Shown here piece by piece: positions 45,176 to 47,251 of a stretch of DNA of 64,000 nt (its first letter is position 1; every line of letters begins with the position of its first letter). The notes under the pieces are model-generated. The model ran no database searches. It worked only from the letters and a program-made list of their open reading frames with translations, and was not told where the DNA came from. The translations under genes were made by a program, and so were the position numbers. The stretch covers positions 124,001-188,000 of the forward strand of contig NZ_FNLC01000004.1 of the NCBI RefSeq assembly GCF_900104065.1, given 5' to 3'. Source of the stretch: Natronobacterium texcoconense (GTDB taxonomy: Archaea; Halobacteriota; Halobacteria; Halobacteriales; Natrialbaceae).

Positions 45176-45439
45176 TCAGTCGTTGTACGTTCCGTGCTGG
45201 GGTCCACCGTCCCGGTCGGTAGAAGAGAGTGAGACGGTGCCGGATTCGTCGATACGGATCGCGTACCCACAGTACGTAAAGGTAACCGCCGTCCCTCGAG
45301 TAGCCGACTCGAGTAGGTTGTCGAGTGCGTCGGGATCGATCGTCTCGTACAGCGGTCGATCCAGCGCTACCGGTTCGATCTCCTCGGCTGCAGCTACCTC
45401 TTCGACGACCATCTGACTCGGCCGCTTGCCCCGATCCAT
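45176..45439 (-). CDS. HalOD1 output domain protein
   Basis: The 87-residue protein matches HalOD1 (VVEEVAAAEEIEPVALDRPLYETIDPDALDNLL, then AVTFTYCGYAIRIDESGTVSL). HalOD1 is a haloarchaeal output domain of unknown action that occurs alone or fused to receiver domains. I used the ATG at 45439, which lies 29 bp from a TTTATC box. It is divergent from the RNA array on its left side. Confidence 0.8.
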   Translation of the reverse strand: MDRGKRPSQMVVEEVAAAEEIEPVALDRPLYETIDPDALDNLLESATRGTAVTFTYCGYAIRIDESGTVSLSSTDRDGGPQHGTYND

Positions 45440-45605
45440 GCCAGTCGGTACGACGAGCCACCTGATAAACATATTGGCAAGCAAGAACGTACGGAAAATG
45501 AAGGGCTTCAGCTCTCCCTTTCAGGGAACGCAACCGGCCGTTAGAACGGTAGACACTGTCAATATGGCCAACAGTTTTAGTATGGAGAGCCACCTTCGCT
45601 CAACT

Positions 45606-45670
45606 GGCAGGGATTGGGGGATTCAGTCGTTGCCACGGTTGGTCCCGTTCGACTCGTGACACACCCTGCC
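45606..45670 (+). ncRNA. Putative small RNA, unit A
   Basis: GGCAGGG (45606-45612) pairs with CCCTGCC (45664-45670). The intervening 51 nt start ATTGGGGG and contain a nested stem, AGTCG with CGACT and ACGG with CCGT. The A-T pair at position 4 replaces the G-C pair of the other units, a compensatory change. TTTAGTA begins 30 bp upstream. Confidence 0.5.
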
Positions 45671-45846
45671 GCCTCCACTGTCGACACATCGATTCAACCA
45701 CCACATCTTCCCGATCACCCACACTGGGGGCATTCGGCCGGTCGGTTCACCACCCGGCCAACTTCGAACCGTAACGTCCCGAAATCGATGGACTGCGTAC
45801 TGTTTCGGCCAACGCCTTTACTACCGGCTACGAGCAACGTCTACCC

Positions 45847-45910
45847 GGCGGGAAATTGGGGTTCAATCGTTCGTCGGTTGATCTCGTCCGATACGTGACA
45901 GTACCCCGCC
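45847..45910 (+). ncRNA. Putative small RNA, unit B
   Basis: GGCGGG (45847-45852) pairs with CCCGCC (45905-45910). The middle is clearly homologous to unit A and keeps the inner stem as ATCG with CGAT, where one G-C pair of unit A became A-T. TTTACTA lies 30 bp upstream (45817-45823). Confidence 0.5.
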
Positions 45911-46094
45911 AATCCGTGTCACTCCAGGGTGACTTCCCCGATCGTATCTTCCCGATTCGATCATGGACTGATTCGTTCGACCGGCCATCCTGTCTCTTTC
46001 GGCCGGTTTCATTCGTTCTCATCCGTAAACGGTGACCAACCGTTTCGACGATCGAACCAACTGACCTTACTACCCGCCCACAAAATACACTCCC

Positions 46095-46146
46095 TGCGGG
46101 GATGGGGACTCGTCAATAGTCGTTCGGGCCAGACGCCACGACCCGT
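46095..46146 (+). ncRNA. Putative small RNA, unit C (weak)
   Basis: GCGGGGATGGGGACTCG has the conserved start but lacks a clear 3' CCCCGC partner. The best local stem is GCGGG (46096-46100) with CCCGT (46142-46146), including one G-U pair. The CTTACTA box is 30 bp upstream. This unit may be degenerate or end differently. Confidence 0.3.
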
Positions 46147-46231
46147 CTCCGTTCCTGGGACTTCTACTGCGGTCGTCGTTACCTGTGAACGAATCGATAA
46201 ATTTACTGCCGAACAACTGGGTTTTCCGCAT

Positions 46232-46293
46232 GGCGGGGAGATTGGGGACCGCGACTGCCGTCTCGTGCTCGTTCGACTGGTACTATCCCCGCC
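46232..46293 (+). ncRNA. Putative small RNA, unit D
   Basis: GGCGGGGA (46232-46239) pairs perfectly with TCCCCGCC (46286-46293), an 8-bp closing stem with a 46-nt middle. GATTGGGGA follows the 5' stem. TTTACTG lies 30 bp upstream (46202-46208). Confidence 0.5.
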
Positions 46294-46346
46294 ACCTGCT
46301 CCGGTTTGCCAGTAGCTTTAATCGATATTAGTGTAATCTCCCATCC

Positions 46347-46407
46347 GGCGGGGATTGGGGAGTTTACCGTCATGAGTGAGTCCACTGAACTCGTGGAGTT
46401 CCCCGCC
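46347..46407 (+). ncRNA. Putative small RNA, unit E
   Basis: GGCGGGGA (46347-46354) pairs with TCCCCGCC (46400-46407), with a further C-G pair outside. A second hairpin, TCCAC with GTGGA, lies inside. TTTAATC is 30 bp upstream (46317-46323). Read-through from here would run antisense into cbiE. Confidence 0.5.
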
Positions 46408-46456
46408 GAATGCGGTTTTACGTCCTAAAGTAGCGACGCTGCTCGGTCGATTCGAC

Positions 46457-47251
46457 CTACTCGATCTCTACCGGTCGGCGAACCGCGAGTACGACCAGAT
46501 CCGAAAACGGCGTATCCGATTTCTCGTCGCCACCGGCGTACGCCGCGAGTTCCGCGAGTCCGAACCGATGGATTTCCTCGTCATCGTGAGTTAGTTTTTC
46601 GAGAACCAGCGCCTCGAGTTCGGGATCTGCGCCGTTCTCGAGCAGAAACGCCGCGATATCGCCGGGCATGCGGTCGTACGGTCGGGGGAGCACGAGCAGG
46701 TGTCGGTCGCCGACGGCCGCCGCGAGTCGATCCATGTCGTCGGCGAGGTCGCCGCTCTTGTGCAGCGTCACGAACTCGGTGTCTTCCATCGGCGTTCGAG
46801 CACGGCTGGCGGCGACCTGCAGCGAGGAGATACCTGGTATCACCTGCACCGGTTTCTCGGGTGCTTCGCGTTCGACGGCCCGCTTTACCTTCCCGACGAA
46901 CTGGTATCCCGAGTGGTTCGGATCGCCCATCGCGACGGCGGTCCCCGACTTGCCGGCGGCGACCCGTTCGGCGAACGTCTCGAGCGTCTCTCCCTCGTCG
47001 CTGTAGCCACAGGTCAACAGCTCCGCGTCGGTTCGATCCGCGACGAACTCGACGACGGTCGAGAACCCGACGACGACGTCGGCCTCTCGGATCGCTCGCT
47101 CGCCACGTGGGGTGAGATACTCGAGGTTTCCCGGCCCCACACCGACCGCGTAGACGGGATCGACGGCCGAGCCGTCGATATCCGGTTCCGGGTCGGCGGC
47201 CGCGAACGTCGCCGGATCGGGGCCGCTCTCGAGGTCGTACCCGTCGCTCAT
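46457..47251 (-). CDS. cbiE: Cobalt-precorrin-7 C5-methyltransferase (CbiE)
   Basis: The 264-residue SAM-dependent tetrapyrrole methylase carries VGVGPGNLEYLTPRGERAI and an AMGDPNHSG loop, with IPGISSLQVAASR in the middle and EKLTHDDEE near the end, as in CbiE. The N-terminal 30 residues are an acidic extension. It methylates C5 (and with CbiT C15 plus decarboxylation) of the corrin ring. It is the last gene of the cobN-cbiC-cbiE unit and overlaps cbiC by 4 bp. Confidence 0.82.
   Translation of the reverse strand: MSDGYDLESGPDPATFAAADPEPDIDGSAVDPVYAVGVGPGNLEYLTPRGERAIREADVVVGFSTVVEFVADRTDAELLTCGYSDEGETLETFAERVAAGKSGTAVAMGDPNHSGYQFVGKVKRAVEREAPEKPVQVIPGISSLQVAASRARTPMEDTEFVTLHKSGDLADDMDRLAAAVGDRHLLVLPRPYDRMPGDIAAFLLENGADPELEALVLEKLTHDDEEIHRFGLAELAAYAGGDEKSDTPFSDLVVLAVRRPVEIE

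Follow-up and report, generated by a model that had tools for sequence, protein, structure and literature searches.

What does the tandem array of short repeats in a protein-free gap of the Natronobacterium texcoconense genome encode? The window analysed here is a stretch of 64,000 nt from this 4.0-Mb Natrialbaceae genome, and the gap lies between two minus-strand genes, a HalOD1 gene (45176–45439, Pfam match) and a gene for cobalt-precorrin-7 methyltransferase (46457–47251). The initial annotation had proposed five tandem units, four of them giving putative structured RNAs of 61 to 65 nt. That the array holds members of an RNA gene family with their own promoters is, in our view, hardly in doubt. 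The assembly of the genome was rated 99% complete, though no archaeal SSU rRNA was found in it.

Units and promoters of the array

The G+C content of the array stretch was 56% compared to 64% for the whole window. The two longest plus-strand open reading frames in the array had a flat G+C profile over codon positions and encoded proteins that were not acidic; the neighbouring genes showed the normal pattern. No open reading frame conserved across the units was found, and the stretch is non-coding, with no convincing protein. An Rfam search of the window at the gathering threshold gave no matches. A tRNA-like RNA was rejected, since ARAGORN found no tRNA or tmRNA genes in the window.

Units A, B, D and E begin with GGCRGGG and finish with CCCYGCC, with the exception of B, where the closing stem has 6 bp (GGCGGG/CCCGCC). 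All four carry ATTGGGG. Their positions, lengths (65, 64, 62 and 61 nt) and closing stems were as first annotated. Of the five annotated units, C turned out to be a degenerate remnant, as its lack of a matching 3′ end in the initial annotation had already half suggested, so that the array stands with a likely number of four functional units.

The features are given below with scores from three models. The promoter matrix (20 nt) was derived from 30 copies in other genomes only and was used to scan both strands of the window (128,000 sites). The covariance model R1 was built from eight copies that included A and B and excluded D and E, while R2 modelled the core only and was built from 24 sequences, A and B included.

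45565–45584, plus strand: predicted promoter of unit A (TGGCCAACAGTTTTAGTATG), rank 1 of 128,000, 41 nt before the unit
45606–45670, plus strand: 5′ domain of unit A (65 nt) with P1 GGCAGGG/CCCTGCC, P2 and P3, supported by covariation; 74 bits with R1 and 53 bits with R2, by construction, as A is in both models
45671–45764, plus strand: putative 3′ domain of unit A, a first hairpin at about 45671–45731 and then a GC-rich hairpin at 45736–45759; from homology with the genome G003 and from folding
45806–45825, plus strand: predicted promoter of unit B, rank 7 of 128,000, 41-nt spacing
45847–45910, plus strand: 5′ domain of unit B (64 nt); 69 bits with R1 and 50 bits with R2, by construction, as B is in both models
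45911–46010, plus strand: putative 3′ domain of unit B, with the terminator-like final hairpin 45980–45986/46001–46007 and TTT; from folding and 3′-half homology
46055–46160, plus strand: unit C, degenerate copy starting at about 46095 with GCGGGGATGGGG; broken promoter (rank 1392), 3′ arm not seen
46191–46210, plus strand: predicted promoter of unit D, rank 10 of 128,000, 41-nt spacing
46232–46293, plus strand: unit D (62 nt), putative short form with P1 GGCGGGGA/TCCCCGCC and a different interior; 16.4 bits with R1 (E-value 0.08), D being outside the model
46306–46325, plus strand: predicted promoter of unit E, rank 2 of 128,000, 41-nt spacing
46347–46407, plus strand: unit E (61 nt), putative short form with P1 GGCGGGGA/TCCCCGCC and a different interior; 19.9 bits with R1 (E-value 0.009), E being outside the model; folding z-score −2.9
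46403–46419, plus strand: terminator-like hairpin CCGC/GCGG with TTTT, overlapping the 3′ arm of E, read from the sequence

The distance from the start of the matrix site to the unit was exactly 41 nt in A, B, D and E. This identical spacing, the promoter ranks of 1, 2, 7 and 10 and the rarity of GGCGGGGATTGGGG, which at one mismatch or fewer has three occurrences in the 4.0-Mb genome, two of them units A and E, argue that the array is not a product of chance. A pattern of the promoter followed by GGCRGG, with a gap of 20 to 26 allowed, had 12 matches in the five genomes of the window's genus, all with a gap of 26, compared to one match for the reversed control. The promoter pattern also led us to further copies: one in the genome of the window itself (L133) and two in tandem in G003.

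We also observed a motif similar to the family promoter in front of the HalOD1 gene (45461–45480, minus strand, rank 4 of 128,000). The ATG is situated 41 nt past the motif start; at this distance the transcript may lack a leader, and the gene and the RNAs of the array may share their regulation.

Structure and extent of the predicted RNAs

The compensatory change in P1 pointed out in the initial annotation, GGCAGGG/CCCTGCC in A versus GGCGGGG/CCCCGCC in D and E, is real and recurs in many relatives. For P1, the strands of which were picked by hand, double changes were seen in 6 of the 7 pairs, in 24 cells compared to 7.4 in shuffled alignments, with none of 500 shuffles as high. For P2 and P3, double changes were seen in 7 of the 16 pairs; there were 16 such cells versus 7.8 after shuffling (none of 500 shuffles reached 16), the covariation score was 0.271 versus 0.215, and in slid controls the paired fraction fell to 20–49%. 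Such shuffle tests overstate significance for related sequences; the slid controls, and also the occurrence in several genera, are a partial safeguard.

The folding energies of the 5′ domains compared to shuffles gave z-scores of −0.5 for A, −1.6 for B, −1.7 for D and −2.9 for E. The minimum free energy of A is not unusual, and energy alone is insufficient to reveal the structure. The consensus made by RNAalifold from the full MAFFT alignment was poor because variable linkers misalign, and helices P4 to P6 were read from the sequences, unscored. In the 3′ half, many full-length copies, though not all, have a P4-loop GUCAAU complementary to the P5 loop AUUGAC (for example, L037, L081 and the second copy of L054), an unscored complementarity that would form a possible pseudoknot.

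The repeats shared by A and B reach beyond the 65-nt unit at both ends, taking in promoter sequence as well as sequence on the 3′ side, a first hint of a longer unit. The best blastn match, in G003, was 88% identical over 45557–45764, with unrelated flanks on both sides; the unit of homology thus runs from promoter to terminator. Full-length members in Natrinema and other genera have lengths of 170–200 nt and end, in the aligned sequences, with a GC-rich hairpin and a U-run, apparently their own terminator. In the window's genus, two hairpins follow the 5′ domain, the first with a loop of the GATCACCCA type and the second resembling a terminator. Within the window, terminators were clear in B and E, weak in A and not seen in D.

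From the longer homology and the 3′ hairpins we infer transcripts of about 160 nt, at about 45606–45764 for A and 45847–46010 for B. The lengths of 61–65 nt initially given for the RNAs would therefore describe only the 5′ domain of these two units, and we consider it quite likely that A and B transcripts exceed 65 nt. Between unit D and the promoter of E there is too little space for a 3′ half, and E is followed by a short hairpin with TTTT; D and E are probably short forms that end after the 5′ domain.

Neighbouring copies retain the promoter, P1 and the 3′ end, and differ in the interior of P1, in line with the strongly differing middles noted at the outset. The interiors of A and B hold P2 and P3, while those of D, E, L133 and one member of the tandem pair in G003 hold TTGGGG and then other hairpins. 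The other member of that pair is without even the TTGGGG. The two copies in the halovirus HJTV-4 differ in their P2 loops. Altogether, a constant frame with a variable interior was seen in A/B/D/E, in the pair in L129/L141, in L133 and in the two virus copies.

Distribution of the family

When 60 relatives were searched by blastn with the array, each of the other four genomes of the window's genus had matches at several dispersed loci; outside the genus there was one 21-nt match, which was taken for chance. The R1 model found copies in all five genomes of the genus and in ten genomes of three other genera. Within the window, R1 ranked E third and D fourth, although neither is in the model. The copies found by R1 have the same promoter and a common core TTCAGTCGTTGCC..GTCCGACNCGAGACA; their 3′ half, also conserved, terminates in a GC-rich hairpin and a U-run.

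With R2 the family was detected in 42 of 125 Natrialbaceae genomes and in 6 of 29 genera, Natrinema among them, with up to 11 copies per genome. A few of the weakest matches look false. Among the 391 genomes of the class, R2 gave two weak matches outside Natrialbaceae, both apparently false. The weak model matches L088, L089, L091 and L094 all appear to be false. Judged by these model searches, the family is specific to Natrialbaceae and occurs essentially nowhere else in the class.

Unannotated copies are present on Natrinema plasmids and megaplasmids; a plasmid search with the window array as query gave no match. The HJTV-4 genome (L054:3866–4430) carries two tandem, diverged, unannotated copies upstream of gp44, a member of the small protein family sORF2, and the first of these copies is also carried by a related viral contig (L266). 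In two pattern scans of viral contigs, a real copy occurred only in the HJTV-4 lineage among the stretches examined. Homologous arrays thus exist elsewhere, with tandem pairs in G003 and HJTV-4.

An Rfam 15 search with six family loci at E-values up to 1 gave no matches, in agreement with the initial view that no such family had been described, and no published description was found in the literature searched, which included few subscription journals. With a promoter at a fixed distance, a terminator and no conserved open reading frame, the family falls within a known kind, the autonomous intergenic sRNA. We regard it as a new RNA family of that kind, with an unusual layout of frame and interior.

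Genomic neighbours, candidate roles and known systems

The neighbours of the copies vary and include genes for Usp, Rpb4 with a Cys/Met-metabolism enzyme, aspartokinase with a beta-eliminating lyase, methylaspartate mutase, pilin, HTH regulators and TnpB. A cis-acting leader or attenuator (riboswitch-like) of a downstream gene could account for a copy just upstream of the Cys/Met enzyme gene in two genomes of the genus, for the copy between aspartokinase and the lyase in all five, and for the copy upstream of the methylaspartate mutase genes in one genome. On the other hand, neighbours differ widely, no consistent same-strand related downstream gene was found, and terminators are followed by long gaps. 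The array in the window is not a leader because the next downstream gene is convergent, with no close downstream same-strand gene to control. We consider such a role improbable for the family.

An accessory cassette on mobile DNA, in which the RNA would work with the flanking proteins sORF2 and sORF1 as, for example, an addiction or copy-control module, gains from the copies on Natrinema plasmids and in HJTV-4. It also gains from the proximity of sORF2, found within 1.5 kb of 11 of 49 RNA loci (12 of 49 with sORF1), always on the same strand, compared to about 0.1 expected, by our estimate, from the density of sORF2. Still, three quarters of the RNA loci, the window and its whole genome included, are without sORF2, and sORF2 often occurs without the RNA. 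We found this undescribed protein of about 60 aa (for example, L055:5280–5492, L057:5286–5465, L058:5277–5471 and L054:4467–4649) in 67 of the 125 Natrialbaceae genomes; a genome often has more than one copy, and stop codons frequently interrupt the reading frame. It had no match in Pfam, NCBIfam, PHROGs or PADLOC, and its single-sequence predicted structure (three helices, pLDDT 70) was too poor for a fold search. Thus, sORF2 was rejected as an obligate partner and is neither necessary nor sufficient for the RNA loci, and we consider the cassette reading rather doubtful. A DNA element (a repeat, an array of binding sites or the end of a mobile element) would agree with the dispersed, multi-copy, plasmid- and virus-borne occurrence; it is very improbable given the compensatory changes in three helices, the fixed promoter spacing and the ends with a hairpin and a U-run. 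Least probable of all is a guide of an RNA-guided nuclease such as TnpB, suggested by the constant frame with a variable part and by TnpB-like genes within 1.5 kb of L050 and L052. These are only 2 of the 49 loci, no overlap or abutment with a tnpB 3′ end characteristic of an omega-RNA was seen, the variable segment is enclosed by a stem rather than placed at a free 3′ end, and no TnpB-like gene was seen beside the window array. A type III toxin-antitoxin RNA was rejected, as no gene of the ToxN, CptN or TenpN kind was among the flanking proteins examined and each unit has its own promoter.

Two observations concern individual loci. The subgroup of copies at the aspartokinase locus (L012, L017, L018, L021 and L022) has a different inner hairpin, of the ACGATCACTC/GAGCGATCGT type. 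In G003, the interval from the RNA to the genes for methylaspartate mutase contains an inverted repeat TAGGGATTATCGTAG/CTACGATAATCCCTA (L010:1326–1429, minus strand), possibly a mobile-element end.

That the copies come with promoters and terminators of their own, between unrelated flanking sequences, points to autonomous genes. The most likely explanation, which we favour at somewhat better than an even chance, is that they encode trans-acting regulatory RNAs, by analogy with studied archaeal sRNAs (PMC6560208, PMC3510493). The array would then comprise four genes and a decayed one of a Natrialbaceae-specific family, each transcribed alone from its own promoter GGCCAAYA-NN-TTTA, the first base of which would lie 41 nt ahead of the transcription start. 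The RNA would open with a domain closed by the 7–8 bp stem P1. In A and B, P1 would enclose a three-way junction, with P2 bearing a near-constant UCGUUGCC loop and with P3, and the RNA would proceed through the 3′ hairpin region to the terminator, while D and E would stop after the 5′ domain. Within the constant frame of promoter, P1 and 3′ end, copies with one shared promoter type would expose segments that differ from copy to copy, namely the UUGGGGG strand, rich in G, and the loop of P2. Such segments may pair with mRNAs or serve as sites for a common protein, and a contact with a protein or a tertiary contact would explain the conservation of the P2 loop equally well.

The explanation we rated second, an unlikely one, is a scaffold or decoy RNA, CsrB-like or Y-RNA-like, that would bind and titrate a protein, with tandem multi-copy genes setting the dose. 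The conservation of several helices and loops, not just of one seed, would fit, as would the many copies, the tandem arrays and the near-invariant P2 loop. The wholly different P1 interior of some copies with the frame kept would be odd for a decoy of one protein, and there is no known partner protein.

For the favoured trans-acting role, duplex scores against neighbouring genes or mRNAs and sORF2 gave no cognate preference, a weak result as the scoring ignores intramolecular folding. A 16S rRNA target for the P2 loop was rejected; the 12-nt match UCGUUGCCUGAC is present in some Natrinema copies only, and shuffles give similar lengths. Among these candidates, then, the analysis identified no target. 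More broadly, and only tentatively, hosts and viruses of Natrialbaceae may carry different repertoires of one regulatory RNA class, in which the promoter, the closing stem, the 3′ hairpin and the terminator would form a constant frame for interchangeable interiors and which would multiply in tandem and move between chromosome, plasmids and viruses. The virus copies raise the question of whether the regulatory RNAs of the host are exploited by viruses or counteracted by them.

Among bacterial systems, the Qrr and OmrA/OmrB sets likewise consist of several paralogous sRNAs, some of them in tandem, that have their ends in common and differ in other parts; they differ from the present family in being bacterial and Hfq-dependent. 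The CreA/CreT RNAs are also small accessory haloarchaeal RNAs, and CreA carries CRISPR-repeat-like segments (PMC8501985); in the present family, inspection by eye showed one short stretch partly resembling these (GTTTCAG), confined to one subgroup. The sRNA162 of Methanosarcina mazei, also a structured sRNA of an archaeon, reportedly targets mRNAs through separate domains (PMC3510493); it is a single gene of a different taxon, and the likeness drawn here is one of description.

The closest comparison is with the sRNAs of Haloferax volcanii, likewise autonomous intergenic haloarchaeal genes presumed to act in trans (PMC3956466; sRNA132, PMC6560208). Of 27 intergenic sRNAs tested there, 22 were confined to one species and three were found in more than ten haloarchaea (PMC3956466); such confinement of most haloarchaeal sRNAs tested so far makes comparative work difficult. 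Unlike the hardly conserved H. volcanii sRNAs, the present family comes in multiple copies and tandem arrays and is conserved from genus to genus. With its strong covariation, recognisable promoter and virus copies, it offers an archaeal sRNA class open to modelling, mapping and knock-out.
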